Source: Bacteroidales bacterium
GTDB lineage: Bacteria; Bacteroidota; Bacteroidia; Bacteroidales; B18-G4
Length of the DNA stretch: 64,000 nt
Assembly: GCA_018400295.1 (NCBI GenBank)
Contig: JAGYMZ010000003.1
Span: 1 to 64,000, forward strand
Reading direction: 5' to 3'
Shown here piece after piece: positions 6,184-29,933 of the stretch. The translations under genes and the position numbers were made by a program. Positions within the stretch are counted from its first letter, which is position 1. Each line of letters begins with the position of its first letter. The notes under the pieces are model-generated. The model saw nothing but the letters and a program-made list of their open reading frames with translations. It did not search any database and was not told where the DNA came from.

Positions 6184-7461
6184 TTATTTATATGCATTTC
6201 GGACTCCCTGTCCTGCAATACTATAATACCAATAGATGGCAAAGATCATAACACTGCCGCAGGAAACGCTCATGAGTATGAATGCCAGTTTATAATCCCC
6301 GGTAATGCCACCTATTCCCAAGGAGACCATTCTGAGAACAACATCCACGATGGTGATGAGCATTGCCTCCTTCTGCCGGTTCATCACAACCGTAAGGCAG
6401 GAAGCGGGGGCGGCAATAAAGTTAAGAAATATCCAGGGAATGATGATTTGAGCAATTTCCCCCGACACCCGGTAATCGTCACCAAAAACAAAAGCGAAAA
6501 TATCCGGCGTAAAAATAAAGAGCATCCCGAACAGCGGCAGGCCGATCAGAAAGAGGTCGCGGTAAATCCGAAGCACCATGGGCCTCAGGTTCGTTCCCTC
6601 CTCCACGGCACGGGAAGCCCGCTGATAAAAAACCTGATACAGGGCATTCCCAATGAGTCCCACAGGCGCTTTTAATATGCGGAAGGCAAAACTAAAAGAC
6701 CCCAGTATGGTTTTCGTGAAAAAATAAATAATAACCATCACAATTCCATGGTCTTTCAGCGTATCCATGAATGCATGGGGTGTGTTTATCCGGGGAAAAT
6801 TGCGATAGTCCCGCCCATTTTTTTTTATCCCTGTCCAGGTAACATCACGGCTAAAATCCCTGAAATGCCTCAGTGCTTTCCATGACAATATGATCCCGGC
6901 AGTCAACTGGCCAAGGATCTGACCAAGGATCAGGCCCAGTGGGGTCAGGCGAAAGGCACCGGCGAGAAGCTGCGTGGCCGACAAGGCTCCGGATTGAGAA
7001 ACCCGGCTCACAGCGTTCTTACCAAAGGTTTTGTTCCGGGTAGACCAGTAATTAAAGGTTTGGTAGAGTCCCATCGAAAAAACCATCACAGGTATGAGGA
7101 AGATCCATGGATCCAGCTCCGGGGCATCAAAAAATAATACGATGCCATTCTTGAAAACTGCGATGAGCAGAAGGGATGCCAGGGAAACGGAAGTCGTGAT
7201 CAGCAGGGATAGAACAATGATCTCGCGGGCATCGCGGTCGTGGCGGGGCAACATGATGGCCAGTTCGTAGCGGCCGGTTGAAACTACGCCTAAAACAGCC
7301 GCTATGGACATAAAGGATGCCAGCACCGCAAAGTCTTCGGGAGAATACAAACGGCTGAGAACCGGTGATATCAAGAATGGGATGGCCTGTGCTATTGCCG
7401 TTCCGGTCATCAGCGTAACAACATTCCTCAGAAACTCGGATTTAAAGCGTTTGCTCATCAT
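6184..7461 (-). CDS. Oligosaccharide flippase (Wzx-like, MOP superfamily)
   Basis: A 425-residue membrane protein with about twelve predicted helices in the MOP/MATE arrangement. The N-terminus, NVVTLMTGTAIAQAIPFLISPVL followed by RLYSPEDFAVLASF, is characteristic of Wzx/RfbX proteins. It should flip undecaprenyl-PP-linked repeat units across the inner membrane for the polymerase encoded downstream. The gene starts inside the stop of the upstream DUF4340 gene (TAATG junction), so it is translationally coupled to the Gld-type ABC module rather than heading the glycan cluster with its own promoter. Confidence 0.88.
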   Translation of the reverse strand: MMSKRFKSEFLRNVVTLMTGTAIAQAIPFLISPVLSRLYSPEDFAVLASFMSIAAVLGVVSTGRYELAIMLPRHDRDAREIIVLSLLITTSVSLASLLLIAVFKNGIVLFFDAPELDPWIFLIPVMVFSMGLYQTFNYWSTRNKTFGKNAVSRVSQSGALSATQLLAGAFRLTPLGLILGQILGQLTAGIILSWKALRHFRDFSRDVTWTGIKKNGRDYRNFPRINTPHAFMDTLKDHGIVMVIIYFFTKTILGSFSFAFRILKAPVGLIGNALYQVFYQRASRAVEEGTNLRPMVLRIYRDLFLIGLPLFGMLFIFTPDIFAFVFGDDYRVSGEIAQIIIPWIFLNFIAAPASCLTVVMNRQKEAMLITIVDVVLRMVSLGIGGITGDYKLAFILMSVSCGSVMIFAIYWYYSIAGQGVRNAYK

Positions 7462-8552
7462 TACTTTTCATCAAAAATAGCATGCGGCCTTTCCTCCTCC
7501 AGTCCTTTAAGATAAGAGGCCGTTCTCAGCACGTCGTCAAAAACAAAGTACTGGATCAGCACAAAATCCTGCCGGCCATTGATCAACGCATACAACCGGT
7601 CAAGGTCAAAAGGCACGAGCTGTATGCCCTTTTCCTCATCATACAGTTCACTGAACCCTTTTTTACGGAAGGTAACCATTTCGGTTGTATCGCCGGTCTT
7701 GTCGACCAGGGTAATGATGTGCGCAGGAGGGAGGGATGTGACGGAATCAATATATTCCCGGGGCAGGGAATTGTTCAGGATGGCTTCGTAGTTCAGTTTG
7801 CTGAAGGAAGTAATGAAATTGAGCATACGCAAAGTGTCGTAAGGCTGTTCCTGCCGGTCCAAACCCGCAAGAAGCCTGAATTCTTCGTTCCCTGCATTGA
7901 CAACGGTATAGGATTCCCGGGGGTTTTCTTTAAAGGCAATACTTATCGACCGGATATCCTCCAGCGGTGTATTGAATACCGTATGGTCACGCCAGTCATC
8001 CGCCTTCGTTGAATAGCGTGCGGACACAAATCCACGGAAACTGGGGATAAAGACGATCATAGGCTCATCCTCGCCTTCCATGAGCATATATGTCCCGAGG
8101 TTATCCTGGGTGGGACCGCCCACATAATAGACCTTGGTGCGCTTTTCCCTGGGAAAAAGTTCAAACAGGCCAAAAAAATCAATCCGCGGGACTTCCTGGT
8201 ATACCTCCACCTTAACCCCGGTTGAAGCAAGCCGGGAAAGCACATTGTTCCTTGCTGCTTTGGGTACGGGTGACCGGACTTCCAAATCAGACATGGTCTT
8301 TAACAGATCGCGGGTATGAAAGGGATGCGCATGATGCTTTTTGTTCAATGTCCACCCCTGTTCCCCCCTTTCCAGCAACACACGGTTATTATTCTTATCA
8401 ACCAAAAATACTTTGGTAACCGAGCTTGTGTCTTGCAGGGCAAACTGGGAAACTTCCTTCCGCAGCGATGAGTTACGGTTTGAAACCACCAGTATGCCAG
8501 CGATGATGATAAGTATGATGGTTATAATGAGGGCTGTGCGATTTTTTTTCAT
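7461..8552 (-). CDS. DUF4340 domain protein of the Gld-type ABC module
   Basis: The 363-residue protein has one N-terminal membrane anchor (about residues 7-24, IITIILIIIAGILVVS) and an extracytoplasmic body. The repeated pattern of a threonine/aspartate-rich strand, VFLVDKNNNRVLLERGEQGW, then ETMVTFRKK, is typical of DUF4340. Proteins of this family are regularly encoded next to GldG-like ABC auxiliary proteins, as here. The exact function is unknown; association with the GldF/GldG transporter is inferred from position only. It lies 12 bases downstream of gldG and overlaps the wzx start by one base. Confidence 0.8.
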   Translation of the reverse strand: MKKNRTALIITIILIIIAGILVVSNRNSSLRKEVSQFALQDTSSVTKVFLVDKNNNRVLLERGEQGWTLNKKHHAHPFHTRDLLKTMSDLEVRSPVPKAARNNVLSRLASTGVKVEVYQEVPRIDFFGLFELFPREKRTKVYYVGGPTQDNLGTYMLMEGEDEPMIVFIPSFRGFVSARYSTKADDWRDHTVFNTPLEDIRSISIAFKENPRESYTVVNAGNEEFRLLAGLDRQEQPYDTLRMLNFITSFSKLNYEAILNNSLPREYIDSVTSLPPAHIITLVDKTGDTTEMVTFRKKGFSELYDEEKGIQLVPFDLDRLYALINGRQDFVLIQYFVFDDVLRTASYLKGLEEERPHAIFDEK

Positions 8553-24715: not shown

Positions 24716-25954
24716 CTATTCGAAAGACAAGACAGATTTCCGGATAATTTCCATGGCTTCCATGATCTGCTCCCGGTTAATAACCAGCGGGGGAGCCAGA
24801 CGGATGATGTGATCATGCGTGGGTTTGGCAAGAAGCCCGTTGTCTTTCATGGTCACACACACATCCCAGGCGGTCTTTCCTTCCCTGGGCTTGATCACAA
24901 TGGCATTCAACAACCCTTTACCCCTGACCAGCTCAATGCGGTCAGATTTGATAGCCTCCAATTCCTTCCTGAATATTTCCCCAAGTTTCATGGCATTTTC
25001 GGCCAGGTTTTCATCTTTAATAACTTCCAGTGCAGTAATGGCAACCCTTGCAGCTATAGGATTCCCGCCAAAGGTAGATCCGTGCTGTCCCGGTTTGATG
25101 GTTAGCATGATGTCGTCATCAGCGAGCACTGCAGAAACCGGATAAACACCCCCCGACAATGCCTTTCCAAGGATCAATACATCCGGATGCACATTTTCAT
25201 GATCACAGGCAAGCAATTTACCTGTGCGTGCTATTCCCGTTTGGACTTCATCGGCAATGAAAAGGATATCTTTCGATTTACACATTTCATACGCCCTGGC
25301 AACATATCCATCGTCCGGAACGAACACACCGGCCTCACCCTGTATGGGCTCCACCATAAATCCGGCCACATCAGGCTCATTGAGCGCTTTCTCCAGCGCA
25401 TCCAGATCGTTGTAAGGAATGGTAATAAATCCCGGTGTATACGGCCCAAACCCCCCTTTGGCATCCGGATCGGTGGACATGGAAATGATGGTGATGGTAC
25501 GCCCGTGAAAATTGCTCTCGCAGACAATGATTTTAGCCTTGTCTGCCGGTATGCCTTTTTTATCATACCCCCACCGGCGGGCGAGTTTCATGGCCGTTTC
25601 AACGGCTTCTGCACCCGTATTCATGGGAAGTACCTTATCATACCCAAAATATTCCGTCACAAACTTTTCATACACGCCCAGGGCGTCGCTGTGAAATGCC
25701 CTGGATGTAAGCGTCAGGGTCTTGGCCTGCCGGACCATTGTGTCAATGATGCGGGGATGGCAATGCCCCTGGTTGATCGCTGAATACGCAGAGAGGAAGT
25801 CAAAATATTTTTTTCCTTCAACATCCCATACATGGACACCTTCGCCACGTGAAAGCACGACCGGCAAGGGATGATAATTATGTGCCCCGTATTGGTCTTC
25901 CAGTTCTATGGCCATTTTAGATGTCATCTTTTCAATCATTTCTTCTGTTCTCAT
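24716..25954 (-). CDS. rocD: Ornithine--oxo-acid aminotransferase
   Basis: A 412-residue class-III PLP aminotransferase converting ornithine and 2-oxoglutarate to glutamate-5-semialdehyde and glutamate. Family features are [69 protein letters not shown] and the PLP lysine in [17 protein letters not shown]. The [12 protein letters not shown]-terminus is characteristic of OAT rather than acetylornithine aminotransferase. No other arginine or proline catabolism gene is adjacent. A TATCTTTG -7 box lies just upstream. Confidence 0.92.
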
Positions 25955-26033: not shown

Positions 26034-27107
26034 TCAGAATAGATGGCGGAACGGAAGGAATATCCACTCGATGAGCCGCTGGATAAACGGTCTCTTTCGC
26101 CAATCCTCGTAATCAAAAGGTTCGCAGTGAGACAGGGTTTCTTGGATATGTTCTTTCACCTGCCGGATTATCTCTTTTCGTGTCCCCTGGAGCATAATCT
26201 CATGCTGGTACCTGAAACTCCGATAATCAAAATTGGAGGAACCAATGCAAAAGATTTTTTCATCAACAAGTACAAGTTTCGAATGCAGGTTGCCCGGGAT
26301 ATAATACCAGATACTGATCCCGCTTTTATGCAGACTACCCAAATAGCGGTTCCGTATCACATCAACCAACCCGATATCTGAACGCAACGGAAAAATGACA
26401 TTGACATTGACCCCGCGTTTGGATGCATTGGCCATGATCTTCCGCAGCATATATCCCGGAAGGAAATAGGGGGATTCTATGTAAACCGATGAAGTGGACC
26501 GTTTAAAAAGCCATTCATAACGGTTCTTTATCCTTTGTTTGGTTATGCTCGGTACATCCCTTAATATTTCAAATTCCCCGGACCGGATCGAGCTGTAATG
26601 GACGGGCTGGTTGAAAACGTAATTGCTGTAATTCTGATAATCATCAAGGAAAACTTTCTTGAATGCCCTGGCCAACCTACCTTCTACACGAAGCATGGAC
26701 TCCCGCCAGTTCATGGAATAACCGGTGATATTCGCGGAACCTATATACCCTATCCGGTCATCAATGATCAGTAACTTGCGATGATTCCGCCGGTGATTTT
26801 TTGTGAAAAAATCCAGGAAAAACTTGATCTTCTTGAAAAACCTTACCTCTCCCCCGGCCTCGGTCAGCTCCCTGAAAAAGGCCCCGGAAACATACGATCC
26901 CCAGGAATCGATCAGCAGTCTGACATCAATCCCCTCCCCGGCCTTTTTTGCCAGACTGTTCCTGAAGCGCTCCCCGATGCTTCCATGATCAAATTTATAG
27001 ATTTCAATGTAAACATATTTTTGGGCTTTCTCGATATCTTCCAGCATGGCATTGAGAAACTGCCAGGGATCACTGCTGAGGGAGTATGATGATCCGGGAT
27101 GCTGCAT
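26034..27107 (-). CDS. Phospholipase D-like / cardiolipin synthase-type protein
   Basis: The 357-residue protein has two HKD motifs: HRKLLIIDDRIGYIGSANIT (about 124-145) and LHSKLVLVDEKIFCIGSSNF (about 270-290). These mark the phospholipase D superfamily and are arranged as in bacterial cardiolipin synthases, but the two N-terminal membrane helices of ClsA are missing; only a short hydrophobic amphipathic tail (IEWIFLPFRHLF) ends the protein. It could transfer phosphatidyl groups or hydrolyse phosphodiesters. It lies 15 bases after the LytTR regulator gene and is thus the last gene of a kinase-regulator-PLD operon. Confidence 0.85.
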   Translation of the reverse strand: MQHPGSSYSLSSDPWQFLNAMLEDIEKAQKYVYIEIYKFDHGSIGERFRNSLAKKAGEGIDVRLLIDSWGSYVSGAFFRELTEAGGEVRFFKKIKFFLDFFTKNHRRNHRKLLIIDDRIGYIGSANITGYSMNWRESMLRVEGRLARAFKKVFLDDYQNYSNYVFNQPVHYSSIRSGEFEILRDVPSITKQRIKNRYEWLFKRSTSSVYIESPYFLPGYMLRKIMANASKRGVNVNVIFPLRSDIGLVDVIRNRYLGSLHKSGISIWYYIPGNLHSKLVLVDEKIFCIGSSNFDYRSFRYQHEIMLQGTRKEIIRQVKEHIQETLSHCEPFDYEDWRKRPFIQRLIEWIFLPFRHLF

Positions 27108-27122: not shown

Positions 27123-27875
27123 TTATAGTTTTTTGAAGACTTTCATCAGTTCGTCCTTCTTCCTGAAAGAAACCGGAACCCTGGTATCATCTTTCATAAC
27201 AAGAAAACCGCCATCAGATTTATCGTAACGCTTAATGTAATCCAGGTTGATAAGGTGAGACTGGTGTACGCGGAAAAAGTCAAATTCGCTTAATAACTCA
27301 TCAAATTCCTTTAAGGTTTTGGAAACCACGATGTGCTCGCCATCGCTTGTAAAAAAATGCGTGTAATTCTTATCGGACTGACAACGGATCACATTTGCAA
27401 GATCAACTACGTGGACATTTCCGGTTGTTTTCAGCACCAGCTTTTTCCGTTTATCCTGATTGATATTCCGGAGATTGTCAAAAAGTGTGTTTATCCGGAG
27501 CTCAAGGTTGTTCTGACCGATGAGTGTTTTTGCCTTTTGGATGGCTGCAGTGAGTTCTTCGGGGTCGATCGGCTTCAGCAAATAATCGAGTGCACTGAAC
27601 TTAAAAGCTTGAATGGCATATTCCTCGAAGGCGGTGATAAAAATTACATGGAAGTTTATGGTCTCAAATTTATTTAACAAGTCAAACCCGGTTCCGTCAC
27701 CCATTTTGATATCCAGAAGGACCAGGTCCGGCTTATGGTGATTTATGATCTCATATCCTGTATTAACACCTGAGGCTTCACCGATAACCTCAACATCCCC
27801 GCAAAACAGATTGAGCATATCAATGATCGTTTCCCGGGCCATAACTTCATCATCAACAACAACAGTTCTTAACAT
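27123..27875 (-). CDS. LytTR-family response regulator
   Basis: A 250-residue regulator. The receiver domain (about 1-120) has the acidic pocket VVVDDE, phospho-acceptor Asp55 in LVLLDIKMGDGTGFDLL, Thr in FITAFEEYAIQAF and Lys in LLKPID. The C-terminal LytTR DNA-binding domain (about 145-250) has LVLKTTGNVHVVDLANVIRC, DKNYTHFFTSDG and FFRVHQSHLINLDYIKRYDK. It is the cognate regulator of the kinase encoded 103 bases upstream. Target genes are unknown; the phospholipase-D-like gene in the same operon is the nearest candidate. Confidence 0.92.
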   Translation of the reverse strand: MLRTVVVDDEVMARETIIDMLNLFCGDVEVIGEASGVNTGYEIINHHKPDLVLLDIKMGDGTGFDLLNKFETINFHVIFITAFEEYAIQAFKFSALDYLLKPIDPEELTAAIQKAKTLIGQNNLELRINTLFDNLRNINQDKRKKLVLKTTGNVHVVDLANVIRCQSDKNYTHFFTSDGEHIVVSKTLKEFDELLSEFDFFRVHQSHLINLDYIKRYDKSDGGFLVMKDDTRVPVSFRKKDELMKVFKKL

Positions 27876-27978: not shown

Positions 27979-28917
27979 TCAGGATCCGGCCTCTTTCACA
28001 GGGATCAGGATTTCCACCAGGGTACCGGAAGCTTGCTTCATTTCATCATGCAGGTCATGGATGCGCAACTCGATGTTGTCTTCAAGAAGCTGGTTCAACA
28101 ATTCAATTCTTTCCATCATGATCTTTGTTCCGTATGACCGGTGTTGCAATAATTGTTTTTTATATACCCCGGCCGATTTCATCCTGCCAATGCCATCATC
28201 GCTTATGGCCACCTTCAGAAAATTGCGTATCATGCTAATGTTTACGGCAATGTGACCCCGGCCTTCCTTATGCTGAACCCCATGCTCAATTGCGTTTTCA
28301 ATGAAAGGCTGTGTCATCATTGGCGGGATCAGGATCTTTCCCGGATCGATCCCCTCTTCAACGTCCAATGCATACGCAAACTTATCATCAAGCCGCAACT
28401 TCTGCATGTCAAGATAATTACGAATAAAAACCAGTTCCTTGTCGAGCGGAACATATTCTTCCTGGGAAATAGAAAACAAATACCGCATCATTTTAGAAAA
28501 CACCGTCAGGTATTTCACCGCTTCATGGTTTTTTTTCTTAAAAATAAAGCCTTGTATGGCGAGCAGTGAATTAAAAATAAAATGCGGATTAAGCTGGGAT
28601 CTAAAATACTTTTGTTCCAGCTTGATCAGGTCTTTTCTTTTTTCCTCCCTTTTGCGAAAATACATGATCAGGCCGCGGACAAGCAGTATTAACGCTACAA
28701 CAACACCCAGGATAACAAGCAGGTAAAAAGCGGGGGTCTCTGTAAGGGAAGGTGCGAAATATACACCGGCACCAAGGGTGGAATGAATGGGAAGGCCATT
28801 CTGAACAGAAATATCCGGATGGTAAATTTCCCGTGAATAGGACTGAACCCCGAAAAACAGGCACAACAATACCACAAGCACATATTCTGTGCTTTTACAA
28901 AAAATACCAGAATGCAT
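27979..28917 (-). CDS. LytS-type sensor histidine kinase with a very short sensor region
   Basis: A His_kinase (LytS/YehU) family kinase of about 312 residues. From the preferred start at 28917 (MHSGIFCKS) the order is: signal peptide or first helix (about 8-26), an extracytoplasmic stretch of only about 35 residues, one membrane helix (about 64-88), and the kinase region with phospho-accepting His in FRSQLNPHFIFNSLLAIQGF (about residue 112). An ATPase domain follows (PPMMTQPFIENAIEHGV, DDGIGR). The extracytoplasmic piece reads DISVQNGLPIHST and the junction to the helix reads TETPAFYLLVILG, resembling the two ends of propeller/Y_Y_Y sensors with the body missing. The open frame extends 11 codons further upstream. 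Confidence 0.87.
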   Translation of the reverse strand: MHSGIFCKSTEYVLVVLLCLFFGVQSYSREIYHPDISVQNGLPIHSTLGAGVYFAPSLTETPAFYLLVILGVVVALILLVRGLIMYFRKREEKRKDLIKLEQKYFRSQLNPHFIFNSLLAIQGFIFKKKNHEAVKYLTVFSKMMRYLFSISQEEYVPLDKELVFIRNYLDMQKLRLDDKFAYALDVEEGIDPGKILIPPMMTQPFIENAIEHGVQHKEGRGHIAVNISMIRNFLKVAISDDGIGRMKSAGVYKKQLLQHRSYGTKIMMERIELLNQLLEDNIELRIHDLHDEMKQASGTLVEILIPVKEAGS

Positions 28918-29057: not shown

Positions 29058-29933
29058 ATGATAAAGTCCATGACCGGTTTTGGTAAGCATGTTATTGACT
29101 TACCCGACAAGCATGTTGTCATTGAAATCCGATCCCTGAACGGAAAACAACTTGACATACACCTGCGTATCCCCAACCTTTACAAGGAAAAAGAATCGGA
29201 GATCAGGCAAATTGCCTCAAAGTTGCTGGTCAGGGGGAAAATTGAATTGACCATAACGGTGGAGAACACCGGGGAAAGCACAAATTATTCGATCAATAAG
29301 GCCCTGGCCGCCAGGTATGGTGAGGAGCTCAGGGAACTTTCGCGTTCCCTGGACAAAAACGGGAACCCGGAACTGCTCCCTTTGATCATTAAGCTTCCGG
29401 AAGTTCTGACCTCTAAAATAGAAATGCTGGAAGACAAGGAATGGACAAAAGTACGGGCAGGACTGGAAAAAGCCATGCAGCAGGTTGACCAGTTCCGTGA
29501 AGAAGAGGGCCAGGCATTGTTCAAAGATTTTCAGAAAAGGATAGGACTGATCAACGGCCATCACCAACACATTGAGCCATTGGAAAAATCCCGGGAAGAA
29601 CACATAAAGGAAAAGATCCTTGTCCGGATGAAAGAAGTGGCCGACAACAATCAGATGGATGAAAACCGTTTCGAACAGGAGCTGATCTATTACCTGGAAA
29701 GAATGGATATTACCGAGGAGCGGGTGCGTTTGCAAAAGCATTGCGACTATTTTTTGCATACGCTCGACACCCCGGAATCTTCCGGTCGCAAATTATCCTT
29801 CATATCTCAGGAGATAGGAAGGGAGATCAATACCATAGGTTCCAAAGCCAACGATGCCGGGATACAAAAAAAGGTCATCCTCATGAAGGATGAACTGGAA
29901 AAGATCAAGGAGCAACTGTACAATGTGCTGTAA
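29058..29933 (+). CDS. yicC: YicC family endoribonuclease
   Basis: The 291-residue YicC family protein begins MIKSMTGFGKH, the conserved N-terminus. It has IEIRSLNGKQLDIHLRIP near residues 25-45 and the C-terminal family signature with RKLSFISQEIGREINTIGSK near the end (about residues 250-270). YicC proteins are RNA endonucleases linked to stress and sRNA turnover. The frame is open from 29013, but that region contains the promoter; the ATG at 29058 is the family start. gmk follows after 50 bases, the usual arrangement. Confidence 0.92.
   Translation: MIKSMTGFGKHVIDLPDKHVVIEIRSLNGKQLDIHLRIPNLYKEKESEIRQIASKLLVRGKIELTITVENTGESTNYSINKALAARYGEELRELSRSLDKNGNPELLPLIIKLPEVLTSKIEMLEDKEWTKVRAGLEKAMQQVDQFREEEGQALFKDFQKRIGLINGHHQHIEPLEKSREEHIKEKILVRMKEVADNNQMDENRFEQELIYYLERMDITEERVRLQKHCDYFLHTLDTPESSGRKLSFISQEIGREINTIGSKANDAGIQKKVILMKDELEKIKEQLYNVL

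Follow-up and report, generated by a model that had tools for sequence, protein, structure and literature searches.

Sensor gain and loss are among the main ways in which two-component systems change. BT4663-type sensors carry two seven-bladed propellers and a Y_Y_Y domain; in BT4663, ligands bind to the propellers and the Y_Y_Y domain acts as a spacer engaged in dimerization (PMC5121618), and a scissor-like movement has been reported for signaling (PMC8534201). Another known group, the intramembrane-sensing kinases, has no sensor outside the cell membrane and perceives its signals within it, and many of its members rely on accessory transporters or membrane proteins (PMC8534201).

Here, we describe a LytS-type kinase gene in a 64,000-nucleotide stretch of Bacteroidales DNA (the whole stretch analyzed, referred to as the window). 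Comparison of sequences and gene order shows the gene to be an ortholog of a propeller and Y_Y_Y LytS-type kinase of approximately 980 amino acids. It likely encodes a signal-independent or membrane-tuned kinase that would give its regulator a fixed tone.

A short kinase gene between yicC and a LytTR regulator

The kinase is encoded on the minus strand by an open reading frame of 312 amino acids (ATG at 28917, stop at 27979). The features of the gene, the protein, and the surrounding locus are as follows (evidence in parentheses).

24716..25954, minus strand: ornithine aminotransferase, syntenic neighbor (TIGR01885 above cut-off)
26034..27107, minus strand: cardiolipin-synthase-like PLD protein, 15 bases past the regulator (NCBIfam)
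27123..27875, minus strand: LytTR response regulator, partner of the kinase (Pfam)
27979..28917, minus strand: histidine kinase of the LytS type, 312 aa, which has lost its propeller sensor (open reading frame, Pfam, synteny, tree)
27982..28656, minus strand: cytoplasmic kinase half (Pfam and ortholog alignment)
28657..28731, minus strand: membrane helix, residues 63 to 87 (sequence and alignment to the ortholog helix)
28732..28833, minus strand: outer stub of 34 residues (29 to 62), remnant of a sensor of ~704 residues (profile comparison with orthologs)
28834..28917, minus strand: hydrophobic N-terminal stretch of residues 1 to 28, either a signal peptide or a first helix (sequence and alignment to ortholog signal peptides)
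29058..29933, plus strand: YicC family endoribonuclease, divergent neighbor (NCBIfam)

The protein matched the Pfam model His_kinase (PF06580; E value, 2.3e-21), with HATPase_c below the cut-off. It carries the motifs LNPHFIFNSL (residue 109), PFIENAIEHG (residue 204), and DDGIGR (residue 240), which we take to be the H, N, and G boxes, so that all of the kinase boxes are present. Together with the adjoining regulator, which has Response_reg and LytTR domains, these features place the gene in the class of LytS-type kinases paired with LytTR regulators. The stub, REIYHPDISVQNGLPIHSTLGAGVYFAPSLTETP, lies between the likely end of the signal peptide and the membrane helix, and its 34 residues agree with the original prediction of a LytS-type kinase with an outer part of only about 35 residues. 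Cleavage of the signal peptide is placed provisionally after SYS, by likeness to the site between S and Q in the orthologs. Scans of the short protein with Pfam and NCBIfam returned no sensor domain; neither Reg_prop nor Y_Y_Y was matched by Pfam in the stub, which at 34 residues is too short for those models.

The regulator is 60 to 73% identical to its counterparts at the locus in seven relatives. For the PLD protein, the best NCBIfam model was TIGR04265 (E value, 3.8e-64), below its curated cut-off. As only ~140 bases separate yicC from the kinase gene, the space upstream is too small for a displaced sensor. A search for a detached sensor elsewhere in the window genome found none, the only matches being two paralogous kinases.

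Full-length orthologs at the same locus

The family comprises nine genomes of the resource, the window genome included, and its conserved locus order runs from nadD, gmk, and yicC to the kinase, the LytTR regulator, and the cardiolipin-synthase-like gene. Whole kinases are present in six relatives (G001, G004, G005, G006, G007, and G008), of which G001 belongs to the same genus as the window genome. All six are of the ~980-amino-acid propeller type (983 to 1,061 amino acids as stop-to-stop frames), and each lies beside yicC. Five of these genomes (G001, G004, G006, G007, and G008) have yicC, kinase, regulator, and PLD gene in this order, with the regulator on the same contig, and in G005 the locus is spread over two contigs, the regulator and PLD gene being apart from the contig with yicC and the kinase. 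Reg_prop and Y_Y_Y domains were found in all three orthologs scanned by Pfam (G001, G004, and G005), and the kinases of G006, G007, and G008 align with these three along the entire sensor. The G001 protein also matches PDB entries 4a2l and 3v9f. The check proposed with the original prediction thus came out in its favor: relatives have full-length propeller kinases at this locus, and the stub aligns at each end with the corresponding end of the sensor of these kinases.

In G002, also of the same genus, the gene is divided between contig ends. Its start contains EGLPASNVY, a first blade, and its kinase begins a different contig from this propeller start, the middle lying outside the sequence seen. 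In G003 (contig C50, locus L072, positions 1149 to 1482), yicC directly adjoins the PLD gene, with no kinase or regulator between them. G005, in addition to its whole kinase on contig C193, has a second C-terminal kinase piece at the end of the contig with the regulator and PLD gene (contig C162, locus L055, positions 7294 to 7617) that is 41% identical to the window kinase and adjoins the regulator; the contamination value of this genome is 7, and the extra piece possibly reflects strain mixture or mis-binning.

In a tree of the kinase half, the window kinase and those of seven relatives formed one clade (bootstrap support, 99), with the window kinase beside G001 and G002. Because it lies inside the full-length clade, the loss of the sensor falls on the window's own branch, and this would be the simplest history of the sequences compared. 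A kinase search of the contig collection gave one distant clostridial match only; the species was not represented there by a further genome. By domain content, the window kinase falls outside the Reg_prop/Y_Y_Y class, and by shared descent of kinase and locus it belongs with it; it is a descendant of that family and no longer a propeller sensor.

The outer stub is a mosaic of sensor remnants

A mosaic origin of the stub was first indicated by a MAFFT alignment and then confirmed by a separate test, in which the profile was built from the six full-length orthologs and excluded the window protein. The best ungapped piece of the stub, STLGAGVYFAPSL, fell on STTGDGVFFTPNM at about positions 326 to 338 of the 989 in the G001 frame. 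Its score of 39.3 compares with a mean of 19.5 (standard deviation, 2.8) for shuffled sequences, none of which scored as high in 1,000 trials. When several pieces were placed along a colinear path with penalized jumps, the score of the stub was reached by none of 2,000 shuffles and by none of 2,000 natural 34-mers drawn from 24 other window proteins, with the same null result at each jump penalty (6, 8, 10, and 14). Three remnants were recognized.

28774..28821, minus strand: blade-start remnant HPDISVQNGLPIHSTL, fitting blade 2 or a fusion of blades 1 and 2 (colinear path)
28744..28773, minus strand: GAGVYFAPSL, mid-propeller island, matched without gaps as STLGAGVYFAPSL (MAFFT and profile)
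28732..28743, minus strand: TETP, juxtamembrane piece left from the end of the Y_Y_Y region (MAFFT and profile)

The colinear path placed HPDISVQNGLPIHSTL on blade 2 (positions 83 to 98), GAGVYFAPSL on positions 329 to 338 (an island of 10 to 13 residues), and TETP on TDTT (positions 738 to 741). It also put RE at positions 38 and 39 and IY at positions 56 and 57, matches that are too short for meaning. The start of the stub had been likened to the first blade of a propeller sensor. The likeness to a blade holds, but the N-terminal piece through IHSTL fits blade 2 better than blade 1 (31.2 versus 16.7 over 14 residues); over DISVQNGLP alone, the two blades are nearly equal (22.3 versus 20.5). 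The end of the stub had been read as that of a Y_Y_Y domain running into the membrane helix, and TETP indeed aligns to the juxtamembrane TET motif of the orthologs. The middle, which had been taken as a mere join of these two ends, is itself a propeller remnant.

Since a mid-propeller island survives between the two ends of the stub, at least two in-frame deletions are required. The in-frame internal deletion originally proposed is thus borne out by the full-length orthologs at the locus as a deletion, but not as a single one. The alignments suggest deletions of roughly 230 and 400 residues, perhaps together with a third deletion, or with one blade fused to another, close to the start; the net change reduced a sensor of ~704 residues to 34 (about −670 amino acids). 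With relatives only ~50% identical to the window in the kinase, the exact number and sites of the deletions cannot be read. When the blades of G001 are counted by eye, there are about fourteen, and the island closes the seventh; if this count holds, then by comparison with BT4663-type sensors one deletion would correspond to propeller 1 and the other to propeller 2 plus the Y_Y_Y domain.

Short kinases elsewhere in the order

In a survey of the order (an even draw of 393 genomes; E value of ≤1e-48), at least 78 genomes contained a kinase match. Thirteen rows among the matches listed were under 400 amino acids, including the window kinase and the contig-edge piece of G002. Six others (in G164, G216, G259, G311, G054, and contig C130 of G347) were rejected as true short kinases, as they run off a contig end, and that of G091 was rejected as a sensorless kinase on account of PAS-like sequence, judged by eye. 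The remaining 4 of these 13 listed rows are genuine one-helix kinases of 247 to 264 amino acids; they all come from family f25, and each has a LytTR regulator next to it. Three of them form a group with support of 100, and all four lie outside the window's clade. These kinases show that the LytS-type class can persist without a sensor. A family of close homologs sharing the short form, which the original prediction had named as evidence against it, was not found: none of the close homologs is short, and the other short kinases found form a separate family.

At the f25 loci (L056, positions 7551 to 8309 and 6823 to 7551; L079; L080; and L081), the kinases have no outer domain. At L056, a single base is shared by the kinase frame and that of the LytTR regulator, and a TAA was flagged within the matched span of the kinase in G317.

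Alternative explanations for the short form

The draft assembly, which is in 91 contigs, could have misjoined the gene ends of an organism that has a full-length kinase; propeller blades are repeats. We consider this highly unlikely, as the locus lies inside a contig of 134,961 bases, at least two wrong joins would be needed, each in frame and sparing the mid-propeller island, and the absent sensor is on no other contig, although the genome is rated 92% complete. The chance that the short form is ancestral, or that the long kinase gave way to an unrelated short one, is slighter still. One-helix short kinases do occur in another family, but these group elsewhere in the tree, whereas the window kinase lies within the full-length clade (support, 99) and its stub has pieces from three separate parts of the sensor. 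Loss of the sensor by deletion is the reading preferred here, and the locus is a clear natural case of it, the mid-propeller island and the several deletions being additions to the first reading.

Whether the short kinase is being kept is a separate matter. Relative-rate tests of the kinase half with two sisters and five outgroups gave chi-square values of 0.02 to 1.72 in all ten comparisons, none of them significant. For the regulator, the sole value above 3.84 was 5.00 (G002, with G005 as the outgroup), where G002 and not the window was the faster. The stub is identical to each ortholog at 13 to 15 of 30 positions, and intact orthologs are mutually identical at 11 to 23 of 30 in the same columns; by this measure, the stub has not diverged beyond what intact orthologs show. 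The reading frame was kept through each deletion, leaving 312 codons open, and the gene has none of the marks of a pseudogene, having lost neither its frame nor its catalytic residues and showing no faster change. All of these observations fit retention, although they would be no different after a recent loss; if the deletions are recent, the intact boxes and normal rates carry no information on function. It is possible, although on the whole rather unlikely, that the signal has gone from the niche, the sensor has been lost, and a useless short kinase is on its way out together with its regulator. The absence of both genes from G003, in which the PLD gene is still kept beside yicC, shows the two-component pair to be dispensable in the family, so the window may represent the first step in the decay of the system; moreover, the kinase finds 6 matches in the window genome, versus 12 in G001 and 8 in G002. 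Against such decay stand the frame, open through two or more frame-keeping deletions, and the retention of every kinase box, as well as the lack of a rate increase in kinase and regulator and the ordinary divergence of the stub, all of which would be compatible with a recent loss too.

Proposed function of the short kinase

Our favored model, which we hold to be somewhat probable, is that at least two in-frame deletions took ~670 sensor residues and that the resulting kinase sets a fixed or a membrane- or partner-tuned regulator tone. What remains after the deletions is a signal peptide, the mosaic stub, a helix, and a kinase that is intact, as is the LytTR regulator beside it. As the ligand-binding propellers and the Y_Y_Y spacer and dimerization domain are missing, the ligand-driven switch would be lost and the ancestral ligand no longer answered. 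The output of the one-helix kinase may be fixed, or it may be tuned by the membrane helix, the stub, or a partner, and the kinase would thereby set a steady phosphorylation level of the regulator. The spacing of 15 bases between the regulator and the PLD gene suggests the latter as a candidate target, and the regulator probably controls this cardiolipin-synthase-like gene.

A bolder proposal, which we regard as quite unlikely, is that stepwise in-frame propeller loss made a minimal membrane-reporting kinase that would read the inner membrane via its helix and stub and adjust its own cardiolipin-synthase-like neighbor. If true, a sensor of outer ligands would here have been turned in nature into a sensor of the membrane. 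In any case, the scraps of a lost sensor domain are still readable here, and a single locus within one family shows three states of the kinase: the long form in G001 and others, the sensorless form in the window, and absence in G003. Should the short kinase be active, it raises the question of what a propeller kinase puts out by default without its propeller, for which a natural pair is available.

Comparison with known systems

Intramembrane-sensing kinases belong to other kinase families and are recognized by two membrane helices with a loop of under about 25 residues. The window kinase is also membrane anchored, with an outer loop that is almost nil in that group and is 34 residues here, and its first helix, read from sequence, resembles a cleavable signal peptide. 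No gene for an accessory transporter or membrane protein, on which many intramembrane-sensing kinases depend, is adjacent. The sensorless outcome is not unique, as the f25 kinases of the same class (G032, G240, G317, and G145) likewise combine one helix and no outer domain with an adjoining LytTR regulator. However, no signal peptide or stub was seen in these kinases, which form a separate clade and were found in four genomes, versus one for the window form. Hybrid-type Reg_prop/Y_Y_Y proteins such as BT4663 differ in the kinase half. The closest likeness is to the LytS-type Reg_prop/Y_Y_Y relatives such as that of G001, with which the window kinase has in common the locus, the position of the signal peptide, the kinase, and the regulator. 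In place of their whole propellers and Y_Y_Y domain, it keeps blade and juxtamembrane pieces, with 34 outer residues versus ~704 in these relatives.
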